Below, piece by piece: positions 1-12,887 of a stretch of 64,000 bases of DNA (positions are counted from its first letter, which is position 1; every line of letters starts with the position of its first letter). A program made the position numbers and the translations under genes. The notes under the pieces were generated by a model. The model had not been told where the DNA came from and made no database searches. It saw only the letters and a program-made list of their open reading frames with translations. The stretch comes from Pelomonas sp. Root1237 (lineage in GTDB: Bacteria; Pseudomonadota; Gammaproteobacteria; Burkholderiales; Burkholderiaceae_C): positions 628,400 through 692,399 of the forward strand of contig NZ_LMDK01000012.1 in NCBI RefSeq assembly GCF_001425055.1. The letters run 5' to 3'.

Positions 1-1031
<1,031 letters not shown>

Positions 1032-1039
<8 letters not shown>

Positions 1040-2942
1040 CTTTCGTCTCCGGTACTGCCGCCCAGGTTTCGACGGCAAGGTCGAACTCGAAACTCATGCC
1101 GTGCTCCAGGCGTTGGGCACGCAGCGTGCCGCCGAACTCATGCACGATCTTGGCTGAAATCACCAGGCCCAGCCCCAGGCCTTCGCCAGCGGGCTTGGTG
1201 GTGAAGAAGGGCTCGAACAGGCGCTGCAGGTCTGCCTCGCCGACACCGGCACCGCTGTCCTGCACGCGCATCAGGGCGCGGCGCCCGCCATCCTGTGCGA
1301 TGACCTGCACGCGGAGTTGGCGCTCGGCCTCGTTCTGCATCGCGTCAATGGCGTTGCCGAACAGGTTGACCAGCACCTGCTCCAGCCGGTTGGCCTCTGC
1401 CCGCACGCGCAGGCCGGCGGGCACCTCGATCTCGGCCTGCACATCCAGCGCGCGGCTGCGGTGCTCCAGCAGCAGCAGGGCGTTGCGCACGCAGTCCAGC
1501 AACGATACGGCGCCCGTGACCTGCTCGTCGGCCTTGCGGGCAAAACTCTTCAGCTGGCGCGTGATCTGACTCATGCGCTCGACCATGTCGTCCATCAGCT
1601 GCAGATTGGTCGCCACCGCGTCCTGGCGGCCGGCTTCCAGCAAGCGGATCGAGTTGCGCGCCAGCGCGCGCAAGGCGGTCAGCGGCTGGTTGACTTCGTG
1701 CGACAGCCCGGCCGACATCTGACCCAGCACGGCAAGCTTGCTGGCCTGCAGCAACTCGCCTTCGGTCTGCAGGCGCTGGGCGATCTGGGTCTTCAGCGCG
1801 TCGTTGGTCTGGCGCAGCTCGGCGGTGCGGCTGTCCACCAGTTGTTCGAGCAGGGCGTGGGCCTGCTGCAGCTCCGTTTGCGCTTTGGTGAGCTGGCGCA
1901 GCGCGCGCCGGCGCGATGACAGATAGAGCACGAGCAGGCCGATGCTGGCGCCAAACGCTGCACCGCCCCAGGCCGCGAGCTGGGCGCGCTGGCGCACCTC
2001 GGTCAGGTCCGACAGAGCCACCAGGCGCAGGCCCAGCGGCACGATCTGGCGCTGCTGGGCCAGCATGGGCTTGGCACCGGGCAAAGGCAGGCTGACCTGC
2101 TGGCCCTGGTGCACCTCCAGCGAGGCCGGCAGGTCCAGGTTGGGGCCGATGGCCTGCGGGTAGCGCGCACTGGCCTGCAGGGCCTGGCGGCGCGACGGGT
2201 CGGCGTGGCCCAGCACGGCGTACTTCCAGGCCTGCACGGAGCTCATGATGACGACGTCCTGATCGTCGGCGATGAGGATGCGTTCGTTCTGCGAGCGCAG
2301 GCCGAGGTCGATCCACGTCGCTTCCAGTGGCGCGAGGTTGAAGCGCACGACGATGACGCCCCGGAGCGGGATCTCTCCCGCTCCCGCCGATGACACCTGG
2401 CTGGCCCCGCGCAGCGGGTGCAGCAGGTAGAAGTCGGTGCTGCCCGTCGTCGGGTCGGCGGCGAAGAAGTGGGTGCGACCCTGCGCCAGCGCTTCGGTGA
2501 GTCGAGAGGGCGGCGTCAACGCCTCGCTGGCTGACAAGACCTGGCCCCTGGCGTCGGCGACGAAGATCTGGTGAGTGCCGGCGCGCACATTGACGCGGGC
2601 CAGCATCTGGCTGGCGGCGCGGCGGGCGTTCGCATCTTCGGGCGCCTGCATCAGCGCCTGCAGCGTGGGCGCGATGGCCAGCAGGCTGGGCAGGGAAGCG
2701 TGTCGGCCCAGCTCGGCAGCGAGGTTGGAGGCGTAGAGCTCCAGCCGCTCGGTGCTGAGTGCCGACAACTGCTCGCGGCCGCTGCGTTCACTGATGCGGT
2801 GCGCGAGCACGAAGCCGAGCACCATCAGCAAGCCTGTCAGGAAGAGATGGAAGCCCGGCCGGCTCAGCAGGCGGAGGAGGCGCAGCGCGCGCGGGCGAAG
2901 AGAGGCAGTCACAACCATGGCAGGGCCGTGTAGTTTGCCCAT
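1032..2942 (-). CDS. dctB: DctB-type membrane sensor histidine kinase
   Basis: The 636-residue sensor kinase is the partner of the adjacent DctD-like regulator. It has a membrane segment at about residues 31-49, a large periplasmic region to about 320 that fits the double-Cache sensor of the DctB family, a second membrane segment at 322-342, and a coiled-coil linker to about 400. The HisKA box [11 protein letters not shown] (phospho-acceptor His about 415) is followed by an ATPase domain with [18 protein letters not shown] and GLGLGLVIS. DctB proteins usually sense C4-dicarboxylates. Here the nearest transporter is a Liv-type ABC importer, so the ligand is uncertain. A start at the Met eight residues downstream (base 2918) is possible. 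Confidence 0.88.
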
Positions 2943-2993
2943 GCGATGGCGCGCACGACAGCGCCTGCAGCAGTTTTTTCGACGCTGGCGGAG

Positions 2994-3033
2994 AACCGCT
3001 CGCAGTCGCTGCGGTTTGTGCGGATTTCCGCCC
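2994..3033. promoter_or_regulatory. Candidate enhancer sites for the DctD-like activator
   Basis: Two inverted repeats lie in the divergent dctB-livH region, 110-150 bp upstream of the sigma-54 promoter, where NtrC-type activators usually bind. One is AACCGC (2994-2999) with GCGGTT (3011-3016). The other is GTGCGG-ATTT-CCGCCC (3018-3033), whose core GCGGA-TT-TCCGC is a perfect inverted repeat. A third short palindrome, AGGGT-C-ACCCT, is at 3068-3078. Assignment to DctD is inference from position and symmetry. Confidence 0.4.
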
Positions 3034-3141
3034 AGTTTTTGCTGGTCGACACTCGTGAAATCTGACCAGGGTCACCCTCTGGGGACGGATCAAACGGTCG
3101 AGGGTTTCATACCGTCGGTGAATACCCTTGAAACGTCTTGA

Positions 3142-3157
3142 TTGGCACGAGGGTTGC
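3142..3157 (+). promoter_or_regulatory. Sigma-54 (-24/-12) promoter of the liv operon
   Basis: TTGGCACG-AGGG-TTGC matches the sigma-54 consensus, with the invariant GG and GC exactly 10 nt apart. The predicted transcription start is about 12 nt beyond the GC, near 3169, leaving a leader of about 45 nt before the livH ATG at 3216. A sigma-54 activator gene lies on the other side of this intergenic region. Confidence 0.85.
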
Positions 3158-3215
3158 GATTTATCCCGGGTCGCTTGGCGCATGCTGCGCCCCAACAATT
3201 ATTCCTGGAGCCCTC

Positions 3216-4139
3216 ATGGAGACTCTGATTCAACAGATCATCAACGGCCTGGTGCTGGGGAGCATGTATGCCCTCGTCGCCCTGGGCTACACGATGGTCT
3301 ACGGCATCATCAACCTCATCAATTTCGCCCACGGCGAGATCCTGATGGTGGGCGCCATGGTCAGCTGGACGCTGGTCACGCTGCTGGCGGATTCCGGCAT
3401 TCCCGGCTGGCTGCTGATGCTGATCGGCCTGGCCGCCGCCATCGTCGTCTGCGCGACGCTGAACTACGCAGTCGAGAAGATCGCCTACCGGCCGCTGCGC
3501 AACGCCCCGCGACTGGCCCCGCTGATCACCGCCATGGGCATGTCGCTGCTGCTGCAGGTGCTGGCGATGATCATCTGGAAGCCGAACCCCAAGCCCTTCC
3601 CGTTGCTGCTGCCCACCACGCCGTTCGACCTGGGTGGCCCCGTCATCACCGTCACGCAATGCCTGATCCTGGGCCTGACGGTCTGCATCCTGGCCGGCCT
3701 GATGTACCTGGTGAACTACACCAAGCTGGGCCGCGCGATGCGCGCCACCGCCGAGAACCCGCGCGTGGCCGGCCTGATGGGCGTCAAGCCCGACTTCATC
3801 ATCTCCACCACCTTCGTCATCGGCGCCGCGCTCGCCGCAGTGGCCGGCCTGATGTGGGCGGCCAACTACGGCACCGTGCAGCACACCATGGGCTTCATGC
3901 CCGGGCTGAAGGCCTTCACGGCCGCGGTGCTGGGCGGCATCGGCAACCTGGCCGGCGCGGTGGTGGGCGGCGTGCTGCTCGGCCTCATCGAGGCCATCGG
4001 CGCGGGCTACCTGGGCGACCTGACCGGTGGCGTGCTGGGCAGCCACTACGCCGACATCTTCGCCTTCGTCGCCCTCATCCTCGTGCTGACGCTGCGCCCC
4101 TCGGGCCTGCTCGGCGAGCGTGTGGCCGATCGCGCCTGA
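3216..4139 (+). CDS. livH: Branched-chain amino acid-type ABC transporter permease LivH
   Basis: The 307-residue inner-membrane permease is the first gene of livHMGF. Its N-terminus (GLVLGSMYALVALGYTMVYG) and the motif INFAHGEILMVGA are typical of LivH, and at least eight hydrophobic segments are present. I chose the ATG at 3216 because CTGGAG stands 5 nt before it. The frame is open further upstream to 3138, but that start would sit on the sigma-54 promoter. With LivM it should form the membrane channel for a periplasmic-binding-protein-dependent importer of hydrophobic amino acids, amides or urea. The exact substrate cannot be read from the sequence. Confidence 0.92.
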   Translation: METLIQQIINGLVLGSMYALVALGYTMVYGIINLINFAHGEILMVGAMVSWTLVTLLADSGIPGWLLMLIGLAAAIVVCATLNYAVEKIAYRPLRNAPRLAPLITAMGMSLLLQVLAMIIWKPNPKPFPLLLPTTPFDLGGPVITVTQCLILGLTVCILAGLMYLVNYTKLGRAMRATAENPRVAGLMGVKPDFIISTTFVIGAALAAVAGLMWAANYGTVQHTMGFMPGLKAFTAAVLGGIGNLAGAVVGGVLLGLIEAIGAGYLGDLTGGVLGSHYADIFAFVALILVLTLRPSGLLGERVADRA

Positions 4140-4152
4140 AGGGAGACAAGAC

Positions 4153-5235
4153 ATGGACACCAAGAAAATCTTCACCTTCCTCGCGGCCGCCATCGGCCTG
4201 CTCGTTGTGCCGTTGTTCGCACAGCAGCTCGGCAATGGTCCGGTCCGCATCATCGACCTGGCGCTGCTCTACGTGCTGCTGGCGCTGGGGCTGAACATCG
4301 TCGTTGGCTATGCCGGCCTGCTGGACCTGGGCTACGTCGCTTTCTACGCGGTCGGCGCCTACATGTTCGCGCTGATGTCCAGCCCGCACCTGAGCGAGAA
4401 CTTCGAGGCCATCCAGGCCGCGTTCCCGACGGGCCTGCATTCGCCGCTGTGGCTGGTCATCCCGGCCGGAGCGGCGCTGGCAGCCTTCTTCGGCGTGATG
4501 CTGGGGGCGCCAACGCTGAAGCTGCGCGGCGACTATCTCGCCATCGTCACGCTGGGCTTCGGCGAAATCATCCGCGTCTTCCTGAACAACCTGGAGTACC
4601 CGGTCAACATCACCAACGGCCCGCGCGGCATCGGCCAGATCGACTCCTTCCACGTCTTCGGCGTGGACCTGGGCAAGTCCTGGGAGGTGTTCGGCTTCAC
4701 GCTGCCGTCGGTGACGCTGTACTACTACCTCTTCCTGGCCCTCGTGGTGGGGGGCGTGGTGGTCTGCTATCGGCTGGAGAACTCCCGCATCGGCCGCGCC
4801 TGGATGGCCATCCGCGAGGACGAGATCGCCGCCAAGGCCATGGGCATCAACACCCGCAACCTGAAGCTGCTGGCCTTCGGCATGGGCGCCACCTTCGGCG
4901 GCGTGTCGGGCGCGATGTTCGCGAGCTTCCAGGGCTTCGTGTCGCCCGAGTCCTTCAGCCTGCAGGAGTCGGTCATGATCGTCGCGATGGTTGTGCTCGG
5001 CGGCATCGGCCACATCCCCGGCGTCATCCTCGGCGCGCTGATGCTGTCGGCCCTGCCCGAGGTGCTGCGCTACGTCGCCGGCCCGCTGCAGCAGATGACT
5101 GACGGTCGCCTCGACGCCTCCATCCTGCGGCAGCTGCTGGTGGCCCTGGCCATGATCGGCATCATGCTGGCCCGTCCGCGCGGCCTGTGGCCGGCGCCCG
5201 AGCACGGCAAGGTCGCCCCGCCTGCCGCGAAGTGA
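4153..5235 (+). CDS. livM: Branched-chain amino acid-type ABC transporter permease LivM
   Basis: The 360-residue second permease of the Liv complex is rich in hydrophobic segments. It contains the family signature GLNIVVGYAGLLDLGYVAF near the N-terminus and LKLRGDYLAIVTLGFGEIIR in the middle. The chosen start follows AGGGAGA 6 nt upstream and lies 13 nt after the livH stop. A longer frame from 4120 would overlap livH. The protein pairs with LivH to form the translocation path powered by LivG and LivF. Confidence 0.92.
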   Translation: MDTKKIFTFLAAAIGLLVVPLFAQQLGNGPVRIIDLALLYVLLALGLNIVVGYAGLLDLGYVAFYAVGAYMFALMSSPHLSENFEAIQAAFPTGLHSPLWLVIPAGAALAAFFGVMLGAPTLKLRGDYLAIVTLGFGEIIRVFLNNLEYPVNITNGPRGIGQIDSFHVFGVDLGKSWEVFGFTLPSVTLYYYLFLALVVGGVVVCYRLENSRIGRAWMAIREDEIAAKAMGINTRNLKLLAFGMGATFGGVSGAMFASFQGFVSPESFSLQESVMIVAMVVLGGIGHIPGVILGALMLSALPEVLRYVAGPLQQMTDGRLDASILRQLLVALAMIGIMLARPRGLWPAPEHGKVAPPAAK

Positions 5236-5249
5236 GGGAGGACACCAAC

Positions 5250-6035
5250 ATGAGCAAACACGACAACATCGTTCTCAACGTCAGCGGCGCATCCAAGCGC
5301 TTCGGCGGCGTGCAGGCCCTGTCCGACGTCGGCATCCAGATCCAACGCGGCCAGGTGTACGGCCTCATCGGCCCCAACGGCGCCGGCAAGACGACCTTCT
5401 TCAACGTCATCACGGGCCTGTACGTGCCGGACGGCGGCAGCTTCTCGCTCGGCGGCACGCCCTACACGCCGCAGGCCGTGCACCAGGTCGCCAAGGCCGG
5501 CATCGCGCGCACCTTCCAGAACATCCGCCTCTTCGCCGACATGACGGCGATCGAGAACGTGATGGTTGGCCGCCACATCCGCACCAAGTCCGGCCTGATC
5601 GGCGCGGTGTTCCGCACGCCCAAGTTCAAGGCCGAGGAGGCCGCCATCAAGGCGCGCGCCCAGGAGCTGCTGGACTATGTCGGCATCGGCAAGTACGCGG
5701 ACTACAAGGCCCGCACGCTGAGCTATGGCGACCAGCGCCGTCTGGAGATCGCCCGAGCCCTGGCCACCGACCCGCAGCTGATCGCGCTGGACGAACCCGC
5801 CGCGGGCATGAACGCGACCGAGAAGGTCGTGCTGCGCGAGCTGATCGACCGCATCCGCAACGACGGCCGCACCATCCTGCTCATCGAGCACGACGTGAAG
5901 CTGGTCATGGGCCTGTGCGACCGCGTGACGGTGCTGGACTACGGCAAGCAGATCGCCGAAGGCACGCCCTACGACGTGCAGCGCAACGAAAAGGTGATCG
6001 AGGCCTACCTCGGCGCCGGCCACAAGAACCACTAA
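5250..6035 (+). CDS. livG: Branched-chain amino acid-type ABC transporter ATP-binding protein LivG
   Basis: The 261-residue ATPase subunit has Walker A GPNGAGKTT, the ABC signature LSYGDQRRLEIARAL, Walker B LIALDEPAAGM and the switch His in LIEHDVK. The motif ARTFQNIRLF is characteristic of LivG-type subunits. The start at 5250 has GGGAGG about 9 nt upstream and lies 14 nt after livM. It works with LivF to energise import through LivHM. Confidence 0.93.
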   Translation: MSKHDNIVLNVSGASKRFGGVQALSDVGIQIQRGQVYGLIGPNGAGKTTFFNVITGLYVPDGGSFSLGGTPYTPQAVHQVAKAGIARTFQNIRLFADMTAIENVMVGRHIRTKSGLIGAVFRTPKFKAEEAAIKARAQELLDYVGIGKYADYKARTLSYGDQRRLEIARALATDPQLIALDEPAAGMNATEKVVLRELIDRIRNDGRTILLIEHDVKLVMGLCDRVTVLDYGKQIAEGTPYDVQRNEKVIEAYLGAGHKNH

Positions 6036-6049
6036 GGATGACCCACCCC

Positions 6050-6119
6050 CGTAGCGCTTCGCGCTCCCCCTCAAGGGGGCGCACCCAGTGGCCTGGCAAA
6101 GCCAGTTCCACGGGTGCCG
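6050..6119. repeat. Composite palindromic intergenic repeat between livG and livF
   Basis: Four stems lie in 70 nt: AGCGC-TTC-GCGCT (6053-6065), CCCCC-TCAA-GGGGG (6066-6079), and an outer pair GCACCC (6081-6086)/GGGTGC (6112-6117) enclosing CTGGC-AAA-GCCAG (6093-6105). The arrangement resembles a short palindromic element I recall as common between genes in Comamonadaceae and relatives. That family match is from memory, not from a search. It splits an otherwise tightly spaced operon. Confidence 0.6.
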
Positions 6120-6150
6120 CTTGGTCAACGCACGATTTGGAGTGATAGGT

Positions 6151-6864
6151 ATGGCAGCAACCCTGCTCAAGGTTTCTGGCTTGAAGGTCGCCTACGGCGG
6201 CATCCAGGCCGTCAAGGGCGTCAGCTTCGAGGTGCGCGAGGGCGAACTGGTGTCGCTGATCGGCGCCAACGGCGCCGGCAAGACGACGACGCTGAAGGCC
6301 ATCACCGGCCTGCAGCCGGTGGCCGCTGGCAGCGTCGAATACCTCGGCAAGCCCATCAAGGGTCAAGGCGCCTGGGACCTGGCCAAGCAGGGCCTGGTCA
6401 TGGTGCCGGAGGGCCGTGGCACCTTCACGCGCATGACCATCACCGAGAACCTGCAGATGGGCGCCTACAACCGCAAGGATGGCGAGGTGCAGGCGGACAT
6501 GGACAAGGTCTTCGGCCTGTTCCCGCGCCTGAAGGAGCGCGCCAAGCAGCTGGCCGGCACGATGTCCGGCGGCGAGCAGCAGATGCTGGCCATGGGCCGC
6601 GCGCTGATGGCCCGCCCCAAGGTGCTGCTGCTGGACGAGCCGTCCATGGGCCTGTCGCCCATCATGGTGGACAAGATCTTCGAGGTCGTGAACGACATCC
6701 ACCAGCAGGGCGTCACCATCCTGCTCGTCGAGCAGAACGCCAGCCGCGCGCTGCAACTGGCCAACCGCGGCTATGTGATGGAGTCGGGCGAGGTGACGAT
6801 GGAGGGCGAGGGCCAAGCGTTGCTGAACGATCCGAAGGTGCGCGCCGCCTACCTGGGCGAATAA
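6151..6864 (+). CDS. livF: Branched-chain amino acid-type ABC transporter ATP-binding protein LivF
   Basis: The 237-residue second ATPase subunit has Walker A GANGAGKTT, ABC signature MSGGEQQMLAMGRAL, Walker B VLLLDEPSMGL and switch His region replaced by the LivF-typical LLVEQNASRAL. The motif MVPEGRGTFTRMTITENL is a LivF hallmark. The ATG at 6151 has GGAG 8 nt upstream. The preceding 115-nt gap holds a palindromic repeat. No substrate-binding-protein gene follows; the operon ends at a strong terminator. Confidence 0.93.
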   Translation: MAATLLKVSGLKVAYGGIQAVKGVSFEVREGELVSLIGANGAGKTTTLKAITGLQPVAAGSVEYLGKPIKGQGAWDLAKQGLVMVPEGRGTFTRMTITENLQMGAYNRKDGEVQADMDKVFGLFPRLKERAKQLAGTMSGGEQQMLAMGRALMARPKVLLLDEPSMGLSPIMVDKIFEVVNDIHQQGVTILLVEQNASRALQLANRGYVMESGEVTMEGEGQALLNDPKVRAAYLGE

Positions 6865-6884
6865 GCGGTTCCGAACCGCTCTAG

Positions 6885-6916
6885 AAAAAACGCCCGGCAC
6901 TGCCGGGCGTTTTTTT
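6885..6916. terminator. Bidirectional terminator between livF and the DCC gene
   Basis: The stem CGCCCGGC/GCCGGGCG (6891-6909) is flanked by A6 on the left and T7 on the right, so it can end transcription from both strands. The T-tract also encodes the TAA stop of the minus-strand DCC gene. A smaller hairpin, AGCGGTT/AACCGCT (6864-6880), directly precedes it. Confidence 0.88.
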
Positions 6917-7304
6917 AGTCGAGGAATCTGGCCGCATGCTCAGGCTGCGGGCGGATGCAGAGGGCCGAGCGCCCGAACAGCCGGTAGCGGTTCCTGGCGA
7001 CCAGGCGGTACAACGGATCTCGGACGATGGACGGGATCAGCCATGCGATCCAGGCCAGGCGCCAGGGCCAGCCCAGCGCATGCAGCACGCGAAATATGGC
7101 TGCCGTGTGCTGCCACGCGCGAGGGCCATCGACGAGCAGAAATGTCTGCAGGCCTTCGGGCACCAGCCCCTCTGCGGCCAGCAGACGCCGCCCCGCGGCG
7201 CCCTGGATGGAAGCAAAGCGCAAGCGGGCCTTGCTGTCATGCCGCAGGATGAACTGCACCCAGCCGTTGCAGAGCAGGCACTGGGCATCGAACACGATGA
7301 TCAT
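6915..7304 (-). CDS. DCC-family thiol-disulfide oxidoreductase-like protein (DUF393)
   Basis: The 129-residue protein carries the family's N-terminal motif FDAQCLLCNGWVQF, the D-x-x-C-x-x-C signature, followed by basic and aromatic stretches (WRLAWIAWLIPSIVRD and YRLVARNRYRLFG). The CxxC pair suggests redox activity. The biochemical role of the family is poorly defined. The gene overlaps the upstream DUF4166 gene by 4 nt (ATGA), so the two are translationally coupled. The stop codon lies inside the terminator T-tract. Confidence 0.82.
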   Translation of the reverse strand: MIIVFDAQCLLCNGWVQFILRHDSKARLRFASIQGAAGRRLLAAEGLVPEGLQTFLLVDGPRAWQHTAAIFRVLHALGWPWRLAWIAWLIPSIVRDPLYRLVARNRYRLFGRSALCIRPQPEHAARFLD

Positions 7305-8962
7305 GAAGTGGCCTGCGCCGGACCGAGTTCGAGATGGCCGTCATAGGCCGCGACGGTGCCCAGCAGCGGCAGGCCGGCGGCGACGCGGAAGTGCAGCTGA
7401 TCGTCCTTGCCGGTTTCCTCGGCCACCACCTGCGGCATCAGCCATCGCGGGCACGGTAGGCCCATGAAACGCAGGCCTTCAAGCTCCATCCTCAGCCGGC
7501 CATCGGCAACGCTCAAGCCAAAAGTCAGCCGGGCAGCCCCGAGCTTCTCCTGGATCTTGCCGGCCACCAGCCGCATTCGTGATGTCATGGTCCGCGTCGG
7601 GAAGTGGCGCGTCCAACGTTCGGCCTCCGCGCTGGCGTCGAGCTCGAAGCTGAGCGGGCCGCTGCTGGCACGGCGTGGCGTCCCAAGGCAGAAGGCCAGC
7701 AGCCGGGCCGGCAGCGAACTCGGCGCCTGTGTCTGCACCCAGCCGTTCAAGACGGTGTGCCCCGCGAGCCGATGGAAGCGCTGCACCGCCATTGGCAGTT
7801 GTGAATAGCTGGCGCCCAGCACGCGTTCGTAGAGGCTCAGGGCGTCGATGCTGGGCGATTCGTTCATGTCGATGCGCAGGCCTTCGGATTCTCGTGCGAA
7901 GTCCTGCAGCGACAGCAGGCCCACACAGGGCTGGGCGCCTGCGAGCGATGCGTCGCCGTGCTGCAGTTTGCGGATCAGCGCCGCAGCGGCCAGCGTCGGG
8001 ACGAAGGGGCCATCGCCGTGAGTAGCAACCAAATGCCAGGTGCGACTGCGCCTGATGCCTTCAGCAGTTTCCCCGCTGACACAGACATGCATGGCGCCCG
8101 CGTTCGACCCCAGGCCGCTGAACCGGTCGCCGAGCCACTTCAGGGCCACCGCATGAGCCGACCAGTCCTTGACGATGCCGACCCGGGCCAGCAGCGCCAG
8201 GGCGTTCATGCCTCGGTGCAGGAGCGGTAATTCGAGGCCGGCGCCGAAGCTGATCGTCGGGCAGCCGGCATGGCGCTTGGGCAGCAGCGCGAGGTCAGGC
8301 ACGTCACAAGGCGACAGCAGCCGGTTCCCGACCGGCACGGGATAAAGGTGACGCCGGCTCCCACTCCAGCCAAAGCTGGGACGGTGGTCCACGGCCGGCA
8401 GGGCCTTGCCGCAGTAGCTCAGGATGGCGCGCACCGTGGCCAGGCCTCGTTCGGTACGGTTGCCCGGGCTGATGCCGATGTCGATGTGGTCGACGCGGGT
8501 GAGTCCCTGCGCCAGATGGCGAGCTGCTGCATCGGACAGGGCAGGCACGGAACTCGCGCCGCTGATGATGCTCAGGCCACGGTCCAGCGCGGCCTGGTTC
8601 AGGCTGCTGATGCCGACCACGAAATCCCGGCCGTCAGCCAGATCGATGTAGTGCGCGCCAGCGGCCATGCAGGCTTGAGCGACGTGATACCGCTGGCCCT
8701 GGAACGGGCCCGAGGTGTGCACGGTGATGTCAGGCGCCAGCGCTTTGAGGTCGTCGGCGAAAGCCGGTGCATCCGCATCGAGCGTGGCGCAGCTCAGTTG
8801 CGCGCGCGCCGCCCCGCGCAGCGCATCCACCAGGGCCAGGCCTTGTGCGGCGGACCGACCCGCCACGATGAGGTGCAGGCCGGGGCTGCGGGCCAGCCGT
8901 TCAACGAGACGGCGCCCGAAGAAGCCGTAGCCGCCGATGACCAGAACGCGGTAGAGAGGCAT
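7301..8962 (-). CDS. Saccharopine dehydrogenase-like NAD(P)-binding protein with DUF4166-type C-terminus
   Basis: The 553-residue protein begins with a Rossmann fold (VLVIGGYGFFGRRLVERLA), as in the saccharopine-dehydrogenase NADP-binding family. Its C-terminal 190 residues (from about YERVLGASYSQLPMAVQRFH) resemble DUF4166. I chose the ATG at 8960-8962. The frame stays open to 9028, but that extension runs into the terminator of the upstream phoD gene. It is coupled by a 4-nt overlap to the DCC gene. The substrate is unknown; the pairing suggests a joint redox role (inference). Confidence 0.8.
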   Translation of the reverse strand: MPLYRVLVIGGYGFFGRRLVERLARSPGLHLIVAGRSAAQGLALVDALRGAARAQLSCATLDADAPAFADDLKALAPDITVHTSGPFQGQRYHVAQACMAAGAHYIDLADGRDFVVGISSLNQAALDRGLSIISGASSVPALSDAAARHLAQGLTRVDHIDIGISPGNRTERGLATVRAILSYCGKALPAVDHRPSFGWSGSRRHLYPVPVGNRLLSPCDVPDLALLPKRHAGCPTISFGAGLELPLLHRGMNALALLARVGIVKDWSAHAVALKWLGDRFSGLGSNAGAMHVCVSGETAEGIRRSRTWHLVATHGDGPFVPTLAAAALIRKLQHGDASLAGAQPCVGLLSLQDFARESEGLRIDMNESPSIDALSLYERVLGASYSQLPMAVQRFHRLAGHTVLNGWVQTQAPSSLPARLLAFCLGTPRRASSGPLSFELDASAEAERWTRHFPTRTMTSRMRLVAGKIQEKLGAARLTFGLSVADGRLRMELEGLRFMGLPCPRWLMPQVVAEETGKDDQLHFRVAAGLPLLGTVAAYDGHLELGPAQATS

Positions 8963-9014
8963 GCGGGAGTCTAAGCACGCCTCACAGGTGCCCATCTGCG
9001 TGGCGCGGCAAAGG

Positions 9015-9037
9015 AAAACGCCCGGCATTGCCGGGCG
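9015..9037 (-). terminator. Terminator of the fadL-phoD operon
   Basis: The stem CGCCCGGC/GCCGGGCG (9019-9037) with a 3-nt loop is followed on the minus strand by TTTT. It lies 25 nt past the phoD-like stop codon. The sequence is nearly identical to the terminator stem after livF. Confidence 0.8.
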
Positions 9038-9061
9038 TTCTGATTCGTGCGGACGGCCGCG

Positions 9062-11398
9062 TCAGAGTCCGGCCATCACGGCCACATCCGTCACGCCAGC
9101 GGCGACGCGAACCGTCCTGACGGCGGCCACCGGCGACGCCGGCGCCGTGCCGCCGACCTGGCGTGCCATCTTCTTGAACGTGCAGATCAACTCGGTCTTG
9201 CTGAGTGACACGACGGCATAGCCCTGGGCGTCGCTGTCGACATGCTTGATCCAGGGGTTGTTGACAGGCGGCGCAACGGCCGTCGTCGGGTCTGCAAACG
9301 GGTTCAGGCGCTTGACGATCTCGGACGCCGGCACGAAGTTGGCCGGGATGCCCAGGGCCGCGGCCAGCTTCTGCTGGATCAGGCCGTAGAGCGTCATCGC
9401 CGCGACCGACTTGCCGGCGGCTGCCAGGCCCGCGATCGTGCCCGCGATGATGGTGCCCATGGTGCCAGCCTGCGTTTCGTCGAAGGTGACGATGACGGCC
9501 TTGGACAGCGACGCTGTCGGCGCGAAGGCTGCGGCAGGCACCAGCCCAGCCAGGACGGCACCCTGCACGGCAGCCTGGATGGCCGCCGTGTTGGTCAGGT
9601 CGGTCACGCCCGCCGCGATGGCGATGGCCGCGCTCAGGATCTGGATGGCGATGCCTTCAGACTCGGCCTCGCTCGTGGCCACCAGCGGCTTCAGCGCGGC
9701 AAAGGTCGGCTTGCTGGCTTCGGTGTAGAAATAGCTGAAGTTGGAATTGCTGGACACGCCTGCCGTGACGAGGTCGACCATCGCCGGCACCTGCGTGGCG
9801 GCGTCGTAGTCGGCCATCACGACGCCGGCATAAAAGGCGTGGATGTCGCCGGTGACGGCCACGACGTTCTTCACGCCCTTGCTCAGCAGTTGGCCCATCA
9901 GGTATTTGCGCTCGGCGTTGAAGCCGTCCCACTGGTCGGCATTCAGCACGAACTTGGCCTTGAAGGCTGCCGGCGCACTGGGGATCTTGTTGCCGTCCAT
10001 GCCCATACGCAGCAGCGAAACCTCGTTGCCCCAGATCTTCCACAGCGCGGTGGACGCCGCCATCGTCTGCACCCACCACTGGCGCTGCGCGCCGCCCAGC
10101 ATGCTGACGAGGGCCAGCGGGTCGGGCAGCGACGCGCCAGCGGCCAGCTTGGCGGCCTCGACGCCGGCGAGCGTCGCCTGCGGCACCATGTAGCGCGCGC
10201 CGATGCTGCCGACGGCCTGGCCGGTCAGCGGGCTGGGCGCGGCCTCGGGGATCAGGTGGTCGGCGCGGTACAGGCGCTGGTCGGTCATGATCAGGTGCAT
10301 CAGCTTGCCGAACTTCAGGTCGCGGTAGATGCGGATGCCGGTGATGCCCTGGCCCGGGTCCAGCGTGAAGCTGATGTCGGCCGGCATGTTCTCGAACCAG
10401 GCTTGGTTGGCCGCGAGGCGGCGCGAGGTCTGGGCCGTGTTGTCGCCGACTTGCGTCGTCGCGTTGAACGTGCCGTTGTCGTAGGTCTCGCGGTCCTGCC
10501 AGCAGTCGTCGCTGAACTCGTGGTCATCCCAGACGGCCACGAAGGCGAAGCGCTCGTGCAGGTTCTGCAGGCGGCGGTCGGTGCGGTAGCGCTTGTAGAG
10601 GTAGCGGTAGTCGCCCAGCGTCGTCGCGTACTTGCCTCCGGTGGGCAGGGCTGTGCCGTTGGGCAGGGTCAGCGCGGCGTGCGCGCTCTCGACGCCACCG
10701 GCCTGGTAGTCGGCGCCGACGGTCTCGTAGATGTAGTCGCCCAGGTGGACGATGAAATCGATGTTTTCCGTGGCCAGCATGTCCATGCCGGCCCAGTGGT
10801 TCACGTTCCAGTCCTGGCAGGACACGAAGGCGAAGTTCAGCGCGCTGATATCGGTGTCAGCCGCGGGCGCCGTCTTGAAGCGGCCGATGCGCGACACGCT
10901 GCTGCCGGCCGTGAACTGGTAGTAGTAGACGGTGGCCGGCTGCAGGCCGCTGATGCGGTGGCGCAGCGTGTGGTCGTAGAACTCGTAGACCGGCACGTCG
11001 GCGGTAGCGTCGGCCGTGCCCGCCAGTGTCGAGGTCGTGCCGAGCAGGGCGGCATTGCCGGCGGCGCTGCTGATCTTCAGTGTCACGCTGTAGCTGCCGG
11101 CGCCAGTGGCGCTGGTCACGTCATCGGCCGTGCTCGGCACGACGCGGGCCCACAGCACGGCGCCGTCGGGCTTGGGGTCGCCCGAGGCCACCGATTGCGG
11201 GAACTTGAACGTGCCACTCGCGGCGGCCGTCGTCGGCAGCGGTGTGCTGCTGCCTGGGAAGGTGGCGGGCAAGGGCTCGATGGGCGCGCCCGCATCGCCA
11301 CCGCCGCCGCAGCCGACGAGGCTGGACAGGGCGGTGGAGGCGGTGATCAGGGCGCCGGCTTGCGCGGCGCTGCGGCGGAGAAAACTGCGGCGATCCAT
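9062..11398 (-). CDS. PhoD-like alkaline phosphatase / phosphodiesterase, Tat-exported lipoprotein
   Basis: The 778-residue protein has a twin-arginine signal (MDRRSFLRRSAAQAG) and a lipobox-like LSSLVGC, so it is probably exported folded and may be lipid-anchored. PhoD family features follow: the N-terminal fibronectin-like part ending in GLQPATVYYYQF, then metal-site motifs SCQDWN, HLGDYIYE, WDDHEFSDDCW and GDIHAFY. The middle to C-terminal part is longer than in Bacillus PhoD and alanine-rich. GGAGG lies 8 nt before the chosen ATG, and the gene starts 13 nt after the FadL-like gene. Likely role: phosphate release from phosphodiesters outside the cytoplasm. Confidence 0.87.
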   Translation of the reverse strand: MDRRSFLRRSAAQAGALITASTALSSLVGCGGGGDAGAPIEPLPATFPGSSTPLPTTAAASGTFKFPQSVASGDPKPDGAVLWARVVPSTADDVTSATGAGSYSVTLKISSAAGNAALLGTTSTLAGTADATADVPVYEFYDHTLRHRISGLQPATVYYYQFTAGSSVSRIGRFKTAPAADTDISALNFAFVSCQDWNVNHWAGMDMLATENIDFIVHLGDYIYETVGADYQAGGVESAHAALTLPNGTALPTGGKYATTLGDYRYLYKRYRTDRRLQNLHERFAFVAVWDDHEFSDDCWQDRETYDNGTFNATTQVGDNTAQTSRRLAANQAWFENMPADISFTLDPGQGITGIRIYRDLKFGKLMHLIMTDQRLYRADHLIPEAAPSPLTGQAVGSIGARYMVPQATLAGVEAAKLAAGASLPDPLALVSMLGGAQRQWWVQTMAASTALWKIWGNEVSLLRMGMDGNKIPSAPAAFKAKFVLNADQWDGFNAERKYLMGQLLSKGVKNVVAVTGDIHAFYAGVVMADYDAATQVPAMVDLVTAGVSSNSNFSYFYTEASKPTFAALKPLVATSEAESEGIAIQILSAAIAIAAGVTDLTNTAAIQAAVQGAVLAGLVPAAAFAPTASLSKAVIVTFDETQAGTMGTIIAGTIAGLAAAGKSVAAMTLYGLIQQKLAAALGIPANFVPASEIVKRLNPFADPTTAVAPPVNNPWIKHVDSDAQGYAVVSLSKTELICTFKKMARQVGGTAPASPVAAVRTVRVAAGVTDVAVMAGL

Positions 11399-11411
11399 GA
11401 TGCGCGCCTCC

Positions 11412-12887
11412 TCAGAACTTGTAGTTGAACTGGACACCGAAGATGGTGGCCTTGGAGGCGTAGTTGCCGCGTGCGGTCGAGTAGGCGCAGTTGCAGGGCT
11501 GCTCGCCGTCGCCATCGTCGGTCGCGTTCATCGCCGCGTCCTTGAGCTTCACATGGCCGAAGGAGAAATCGATGCTGGCGTTGTCCATCAGCGCCAGATT
11601 GGCGCCGAGGGCGAGCCAGGTGCGGTGGGCATCGGGCAGGGCCGGGCTGCGCGTCGCCGAGGGCACGGGCGACAGATCCTTGCTGTAGCCGGCCCGCAGC
11701 AGCAGCGCAGGCAGGGCCTGCCATTGGGCGCCGACCGAGACCTTGGTGCTGTCCTTCCAGTGCTCGGCGGTGGTGGAGTCGGCCGTGCTGTTCGCGAAAT
11801 CGATGCGCAGCTGCTTCAAGCGGGAGTCGCGCGTGAAAGTGAAGTCGCCCATCACGGCGATGGTCGGCGTCAGCTGCTGGAAGCCGTGGATGGACAGCGA
11901 CTCGGGCGTGCGCACCGAGAGGCTGACGTCGGAGTCGCTGTGGTCCAGGGCCGAGACGCCGTTGTAGGGTTTGGCGGTGATAGCGGCCAGCACTTCGGCG
12001 GGCAGGTTGGTGGGCTGGGTCCAGTCGGCGCTGCCCTTGAGCTTGTGGCTGACGCTGCTGCGGTAGCTCAGGCCCATGCGCGTGCCGGCAGCGGGCTCCC
12101 ACAGCAGGGCGAGGTTGAAGCCCAGGCCCCAGTCCTTGCCCTCGACGGCGATGGAGCCGTCATAGGCCGGGTTGCCGAAGACCGTGGCGGCCTGCTGCTG
12201 CAGTTGCAGCGCGAGGCCGGGCGCGCCAGCGGCGGCGGCCTGGTGGGCGGCGTTGAGCAGGCCGGCGGCGTAGACGGAGGCATAGGGCACGGCGCGGCGC
12301 AGCTTGCCTTCCATGTACTGGATGTTCAGGCCGGCCGCGAGCGACAGCTCGGGCGAGGTCTTCCAGGCGACGTTGGGGTTGATCGAGATGGACTTCAGCT
12401 CGACCTTCTGCAGGTTGTAGCGGCCACCCCAGTCAGCTCGGTAGTCGAGCTTGGTGCCCCAGGGCACGAAGACGCCGAGGCCGTAGGCCAGCGTGTCGGA
12501 GGCCTTGTAGGCGGCATAGAGATGGGGCACGACCGCGGCCTTGGCAAAGCTCATCGTGTCGCCGACGGTGCCCGTCGAGCGCGGCGCCAGACCGGAGCCG
12601 GGCAGGGAGATATAGGAGCCCTGGTCGGTGAAGCGGGTCTTGGGGTCGACGTAGTCCACGACGCCGGACAAGTTCCAGCCCGTCAGGCGTGTGAGGCCGG
12701 CGGGGTTGGCGAACAGCGTGCTGGCGTCGGTGGCCTCAGCCGCGTTCGCGTTGGCGGTGCCTTCGGCGGCGGCGCTCTGGGTGCCGAAGCGGTAGCCGGC
12801 TGAATGGGCCGTCAGGGCCAGGGGCAGCAGGGCGATACCTGCCAGCAAGGGGCGCAGCGCGCGGGTTGGACGTGTAGTGCGTCGCAT
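11412..12887 (-). CDS. OmpP1/FadL family outer-membrane channel
   Basis: The 491-residue protein has a signal peptide (RPLLAGIALLPLALTAHSAG) and the FadL-type N-terminus GYRFGTQSAAAEGTANANAA, followed by DASTLFANPAGL. It ends in Phe (QFNYKF), as expected for a beta-barrel. FadL proteins move long-chain fatty acids or other hydrophobic molecules across the outer membrane. GGAGG lies 7 nt before the ATG. It is first in a two-gene operon with the PhoD-like phosphatase, which hints at coupled use of phospholipid-like substrates (inference). Confidence 0.88.
   Translation of the reverse strand: MRRTTRPTRALRPLLAGIALLPLALTAHSAGYRFGTQSAAAEGTANANAAEATDASTLFANPAGLTRLTGWNLSGVVDYVDPKTRFTDQGSYISLPGSGLAPRSTGTVGDTMSFAKAAVVPHLYAAYKASDTLAYGLGVFVPWGTKLDYRADWGGRYNLQKVELKSISINPNVAWKTSPELSLAAGLNIQYMEGKLRRAVPYASVYAAGLLNAAHQAAAAGAPGLALQLQQQAATVFGNPAYDGSIAVEGKDWGLGFNLALLWEPAAGTRMGLSYRSSVSHKLKGSADWTQPTNLPAEVLAAITAKPYNGVSALDHSDSDVSLSVRTPESLSIHGFQQLTPTIAVMGDFTFTRDSRLKQLRIDFANSTADSTTAEHWKDSTKVSVGAQWQALPALLLRAGYSKDLSPVPSATRSPALPDAHRTWLALGANLALMDNASIDFSFGHVKLKDAAMNATDDGDGEQPCNCAYSTARGNYASKATIFGVQFNYKF

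Follow-up and report, generated by a model that had tools for sequence, protein, structure and literature searches.

A DctB/DctD-type two-component pair as the probable sigma-54-dependent regulator of a Liv-type amino-acid importer operon in Pelomonas sp. Root1237

Two-component systems of the DctB/DctD type, as known from Rhizobium and Pseudomonas, act on the dicarboxylate transporters DctA or DctPQM. What does such a pair do when the transporter genes beside it belong to another family? In Pelomonas sp. Root1237 (genome G000, 6.4 Mb), a dctB/dctD-type gene pair (dctBD) lies divergent from livHMGF, an operon encoding a Liv-type ATP-binding cassette (ABC) importer, at one end of a 64,000-nucleotide (nt) stretch that we call the window (G000:C12:628400-692399). 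Comparison with related loci leads us to favor, at a probability of about 0.72, a Liv/HAAT amino-acid importer operon with a sigma-54 promoter, a DctD-type activator and a DctB-descended kinase whose sensor has changed. We propose that livHMGF would be transcribed from the sigma-54 promoter, that the DctD-type regulator would bind two dyads lying ~120-160 nt before the -24 box and reach the polymerase through a loop in the DNA, and that the kinase, which lacks the segment associated with dicarboxylates, would answer to some other cue, probably amino-acid availability. The features of the locus, in window coordinates, are as follows.

1..1078, minus strand: dctD-type sigma-54 activator, open reading frame (ORF) cut at the left edge of the window; Pfam Response_reg and Sigma54_activat
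1032..2942, minus strand: dctB-type sensor kinase; double-PDC (dCache-like) sensor, HisKA and HATPase
2988..2999, unstranded: distal dyad GCGG-AGAA-CCGC, candidate DctD-type site, from sequence and conservation
3017..3034, unstranded: proximal dyad TGTGCGGATTTCCGCCCA, with its core GCGGATTTCCGC at 3020-3031, from sequence and conservation
3115..3134, unstranded: conserved block GTCGGTGAATACCCTTGAAA, 20 nt, from an alignment of 26 intergenic regions; between enhancer and promoter, just 5' of the -24 box
3142..3157, plus strand: sigma-54 -24/-12 element TTGGCACG-N4-TTGC (full element TTGGCACGAGGGTTGC)
3216..4139, plus strand: livH permease; Pfam PF02653, NCBIfam LivH as top match, under the curated cut-off
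4132..5235, plus strand: livM permease; Pfam PF02653, NCBIfam LivM as top match, under the curated cut-off
5247..6035, plus strand: livG ATPase; Pfam ABC_tran and BCA_ABC_TP_C, NCBIfam LivG as top match, under the cut-off
6154..6864, plus strand: livF ATPase; Pfam ABC_tran and a weak BCA_ABC_TP_C, NCBIfam LivF as top match, under the cut-off

Gene layout and its conservation

The pair and the operon are separated by an intergenic region of 273 nt, and both the coordinates and the Pfam families agree with the initial annotation of this stretch, which placed a sigma-54 activator and its kinase immediately divergent from livH. The activator probably starts at an ATG near 1039, and its complete ORF was read at 11099-12478 of L016, which is the window's own locus. 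Just beyond the window edge, L016 also holds a GltI-like binding-protein gene convergent to dctD. The annotation's statement that livHMGF is the only adjacent target is thus accurate on the divergent side; it does not extend to the dctD side, where the GltI-like gene lies, and livK is unlinked.

The divergent arrangement proved to be conserved within a group of bacteria from soil and water. A scan of named genomes returned 27 loci, comprising 26 clear relatives of the kinase and one 30% kinase-only match (L045); with L023 left out of the linkage count (its contig begins at dctB), livHMGF was divergent from dctBD in all 25 readable relatives. The family sample covered 150 genomes, 20 of which, our own included, encode the kinase at E <= 1e-90. 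From the 19 other genomes 20 loci were read, two of which (L181, L187) were dropped where the contig ends before livH, and livH was divergent from dctBD in 13 of the remaining 18. The other five, whose DctB proteins are 40-44% identical to ours, lack this arrangement. The named and family sets have one locus in common (L180 is the same strain as L019, with an identical DctB row). In a tree of DctB rows the liv-linked proteins form one clade with support of 100/99, and the row closest to the window kinase is that of Pelomonas sp. Root1217 (96% identity over 626 columns). The Roseateles/Pelomonas group has kept the promoter, the DctD-type dyads, the divergent order and a near-helical spacing; gene order and promoter also persist in the wider family clade, where the dyads are less regular.

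A livH at least 75% identical to the window protein is present twice in G256, G310, G325, G361, G392 and G393, with one copy beside dctBD; G276 and G324 have partial second matches, and certain other assemblies break off within livH or close to it. Downstream of livF, a convergent gene at window 7301-9028 encodes a protein that combines a saccharopine-dehydrogenase NADP domain with DUF4166; the gene is retained at that place in L033 and L043. An Rfam search of window 1-12000 gave no match, and the same search of ten related loci gave two tRNAs and one thiamine pyrophosphate riboswitch and nothing else.

The sigma-54 element and upstream dyads of livH

The TGGCACG of the candidate promoter begins 74 nt upstream of the livH ATG, and the element agrees with TGGCACG-N4-TTGCA at 11 of 12 positions, the mismatch being a G rather than A/T after TTGC. 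As a bare word it is unsurprising across 64 kb (one observed, 1.2 expected with one mismatch allowed), but within the intergenic region only 7 of 5000 dinucleotide shuffles score equally well. We judge it real because it is conserved: all 25 related loci retain TGGCACG-N4-TTGC unchanged, at a distance of 69-77 nt from the livH ATG, and the near-perfect -24/-12 sequence pointed out in the initial annotation is thereby borne out. A scan of window 2800-7400 for sigma-70 promoters found none.

In the family sample, each of the 13 dctBD-liv loci has a sigma-54 element scoring 9-12 of 12, located 61-97 nt before livH, and 12 of them score at least 10. Among 20 comparison liv operons without dctBD in the stretch, eight reach 9/12 and none reaches 10; in three of the 20 (L131, L134, L137) livK precedes livH, and the scanned stretch is possibly not the operon promoter. 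Four same-family liv operons that are not beside dctBD (L120, L121, L122, L123) have a TACAAT/TAGAAT word in the leader, ~300 nt before livH; after it comes a terminator-like CCCGC...GCGGGTTTTTT that by chance includes TGGC-N7-TTGC.

Upstream of the element lie two dyads 32 bp apart, about three helical turns, so that the tandem arrangement upstream of a -24/-12 promoter that characterizes DctD targets is present at this locus. The proximal dyad agrees with TGTGCGG-N4-CCGCACA at 13 of 14 fixed positions and closely resembles the DctD site of R. meliloti, TGTGCGgaaatCCGCACA (PMC11077940). Of the 26 closest promoters, 23 have its core unaltered; the distal dyad is less strictly conserved. From the start of the dyad core to TGGCACG these 26 promoters measure 123-124 nt (11), 134-135 nt (7) or 102 nt (8); the three groups are thus set apart by close to one or two turns of the helix, a pattern that looping of the DNA would favor. 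The block just 5' of the -24 box starts 29 nt before TGGCACG in 20 of the 26 and 40 nt before it in the other six. A GGG-N4-CCC word occurs upstream of livH in L120-L125.

Elsewhere in the genome, tandem GCGG-N4-CCGC pairs occur at three places besides livH: a KgtP-like locus on contig C16, and one place each on C18 and C19. The sequence GTGCGGAWNTCCGC is found at three places in the 6.4 Mb, the livH locus included; the two further occurrences sit within ORFs (a dctP-type ORF at C7:28106 and a long ORF at C1:42490), and we set aside the idea that they mark other targets of the same dyad.

Could the promoter be real and yet answer chiefly to a different activator, NtrC for instance, leaving the divergent dctBD as a bystander? 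NtrC-sigma-54 control is common for nitrogen-source importers, and an UrtA-like gene in the same genome also has a sigma-54 element. We consider this improbable, since DctD-type dyads occupy the expected place and elements of at least 10/12 keep company with dctBD. DctD-sigma-54 control of the liv operon, as the initial annotation proposed, is well supported by comparison of promoter, dyads, gene order and spacing, and it is the reading we carry forward. The UrtA-like element itself, TGGCACGAGGCTTGC, stands at G000:C20:59284-59298 in front of a binding-protein gene. The names UrtA, KgtP and GltI are presumptive, given from sequence likeness beside family matches; the family matching left out the UrtA-like protein of L143.

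Sensor kinase and importer substrate

The kinase has the double-PDC sensor with HisKA and HATPase expected of DctB. Pfam reports HisKA and HATPase_c, while dCache_1 stays under its cut-off (21.1 of 45 bits). For the periplasmic domain the nearest match is DctB, both in sequence (PDB 3by9) and among the folds matched by its model (best 3e4o and 3by9, with LuxQ lower in the list); the model is modest (mean predicted local distance difference test score, pLDDT, of 61), and we argue the pocket from sequence alignments rather than from it.

Those alignments place a 10-residue gap in the window kinase, relative to 3by9 and 3e4o, at the RPYF/RDYF segment present in both structures. Our genome's paralogue on C16 aligns through the segment without a gap. 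Among 49 aligned DctB rows (L045 and L016, the latter being the window itself, were dropped), the 39 liv-linked ones, to which the window belongs, have no RPY(F/V), and three of the ten others do: C16 (RPYF), a second paralogue on C18 (RPYV) and L195. It is also absent from four rows without liv and from three with a contig end. In the more distant liv-linked rows varied sequence takes the place of the segment, which is not deleted outright. The window kinase therefore lacks the arginine-containing pocket segment of DctB, whose arginine we take to be a ligand-binding residue. Conserved positive pocket residues R1 and K6 have been named, and DctB, MifS and the acidic amino-acid sensor AauS are described as drawing on the same pocket-residue repertoire (PMC8694187). 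The sensor domain of the liv-linked kinase is not decaying: across 23 rows, the window among them, identity per column averages 77%, and the domain is therefore kept for some other use. We suggest that this kinase, although DctB by descent, most likely responds to another signal, which would probably be the availability of amino acids, because the segment presumed to hold dicarboxylates is missing.

The operon itself has the composition of a Liv (HAAT) importer, with two PF02653 permeases and two ABC ATPases, although the NCBIfam equivalog cut-offs for LivH, LivM, LivG and LivF are not reached (LivH, for example, scores 236.8 against 379 bits). The Roseateles/Pelomonas loci extend ~2 kb past livF and showed no LivK relative in its vicinity. 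Three sister genomes (L183, L188, L193) carry livK directly 3' of livF, encoding proteins 79-91% identical to the LivK encoded elsewhere in our genome (C12:392334), and in L194 and L195 a relative of this LivK lies on the dctD side, adjoining the GltI-like gene. A LivK-type partner is thus assigned through orthology, with livK unlinked here, and would be the presumptive binding protein of the importer. Its closest solved structures are 3ip5 and then the E. coli leucine-binding protein 1usg. We conclude that livHMGF most likely encodes an importer of the amino-acid (HAAT) type, because its likely partner is a LivK relative near amino-acid-binding structures.

These data bear on an importer of Liv type for C4-dicarboxylates or other organic acids, induced by dicarboxylates through DctB. 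The descent of kinase and regulator from DctB/DctD and the DctD-like upstream dyad speak for it; the loss of the pocket motif throughout the liv-linked rows, with its gap in the window group, and the amino-acid affinities of LivK speak against it. The genome, moreover, encodes dicarboxylate-type carriers separately: two SDF carriers and eight DctM matches (six full length, two pieces at one place). We dropped this importer as the principal explanation over the lost motif and the LivK relative, and rank it as the least probable of the alternatives weighed here. Of the two substrates put forward in the initial annotation, organic acids are thus not supported, and a nitrogen source, in the form of amino acids, is still the likely one. 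The usual target of DctBD, DctA or a TRAP dicarboxylate transporter, is replaced on the divergent side by livHMGF; upstream of the two SDF genes and of five of the seven DctM places we found no sigma-54 element of at least 10/12, and targets in trans could still exist.

Several observations weigh against an amino-acid importer under DctD-sigma-54 control. The weakest linked site (L185, 9/12) is not distinctive, since eight of the 20 comparison operons reach the same score. The activator loop, canonically GAFTGA, is GSFTSA in the window protein, and in the 39 liv-linked rows it reads GSFTSA (25), GAFTSA (12) or GAYTSA (2) and never GAFTGA; the loop of the C18 paralogue in our own genome is also GAFTSA. 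Strict GCGG-N4-CCGC is absent from six of the 13 family liv-linked loci, single in five and double in two, and dyad distances in the wider family include 103, 111, 133, 134, 168 and 199 nt, of which 111, 168 and 199 would suit whole helical turns less well. On the substrate side, 3ip5 is named merely as "amino acid" binding, and LivK-type proteins may have non-branched ligands. Finally, our genome's unlinked livK is preceded by neither a sigma-54 element nor a dyad, and we set its co-regulation in trans aside on that ground; in this lineage the gene has apparently dropped out of the regulon, so that the whole transporter would not form one regulon here.

The GltI-like neighbor and relation to known systems

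What, then, might the kinase sense? The GltI-like protein is closest to 2ia4/2vha, which we take to be a glutamate/aspartate-binding protein. In L198 (4183-6081), a relative of the pair without liv, dctBD faces a gamma-glutamyltranspeptidase gene with TGGCACGCGCCCTGCA between them. Together, the neighbor and this gene may point to sensing of acidic or general amino acids, perhaps with the binding protein as co-sensor.

One possible form of such sensing is that the GltI-like protein has an acidic amino acid as its ligand and attaches to the DctB-type kinase, so that periplasmic glutamate or aspartate switches on the Liv importer. Docking of LuxP on LuxQ is a precedent for a kinase coupled to a binding protein, and LuxQ is among the fold matches of the sensor model, though below DctB. 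Of the 24 named loci that can be read on this side, 17 have the GltI-like gene 3' of dctD (L032 and L039 were dropped, the flank being too short), and the gene lies within the fetched stretch in 19 of 20 family loci and next to dctD in 18. Within the Mitsuaria/R. depolymerans clade, a 74-76% relative lies beyond the fetched flanks in seven of eight genomes, and in L016 no permease gene adjoins the GltI-like gene. Set against this, the linkage is missing in the other seven named loci and in L197, one genome of that clade (G396) has only 39% relatives, and L195 has both RPYF and the GltI-like neighbor, so that the two features are not mutually exclusive. The convergent gene may be a mere neighbor; neighboring binding proteins and kinases need not interact, and one study found no interaction for AgtS and AruS (PMC11113362). 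We hold this coupling to be rather doubtful. The broader proposal, in which the whole DctB-type clade gave up its own pocket and reads amino acids through the GltI-like protein, in the manner of LuxP/LuxQ, and so turns on a Liv importer by way of sigma-54, is speculative to the same degree; if true, a three-part amino-acid sensing switch would have evolved from a dicarboxylate sensor.

A kinase of DctB descent with a changed sensor, presumed to act through DctD-sigma-54 on livHMGF, can be set beside the four closest known systems. With DctB/DctD-DctA or DctPQM it shares a dCache-type kinase, an NtrC-family regulator, tandem TGTGCGG-N4-CCGCACA-type sites and a -24/-12 transporter promoter (PMC11077940, PMC7962211), and it differs in its livHMGF target, its sensor without the RPYF segment and its GSFTSA loop. 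MifS/MifR-PA5530, for alpha-ketoglutarate in Pseudomonas, is likewise a paralogue of DctBD that acts, through RpoN, on a different transporter (PMC4482717); unlike the window kinase, MifS is reported to keep the DctB ligand residues (PMC8694187), and the window target is an ABC importer. Our genome has a second DctB/DctD-like pair beside a KgtP-like carrier gene (L018 6068-10738, on C16), with tandem dyads and TGGCACGCAAGCTGC, a layout that would be expected of a MifSR-type system and that offers a useful internal control. AauS/AauR-aatJQMP, the acidic amino-acid system of Pseudomonas, with Glu, Asp and Gln as its cues, shares with the window a DctBD paralogue placed over an amino-acid ABC importer through sigma-54, a dyad with a 4-nt spacer and a GltI-type binding protein encoded nearby. 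The AauR site, however, is TTCGG-N4-CCGAA (PMC7962211), which the GCGG-N4-CCGC of the window does not match, the positive residues of the pocket are reportedly retained in AauS (PMC8694187), and the window importer is of the Liv/HAAT type instead. With livKHMGF/braCDEFG, the window shares two PF02653 permeases, two ABC ATPases and a LivK relative, and liv order is retained in relatives; it differs in having a sigma-54 promoter with a divergent two-component pair and, in this lineage, an unlinked livK.

Searches of open-licence papers, judged from their listings, showed no report of a dctBD-liv link. Pairs of the DctBD type are easily annotated from sequence as dicarboxylate regulators, and such an annotation would mislead here, because the clade keeps the DNA-binding and promoter side and has changed its sensor pocket and its target. 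The locus would thus offer a compact case of a two-component system rewired from carbon acids to amino acids, with an enhancer spacing that stays near-helical among close relatives.

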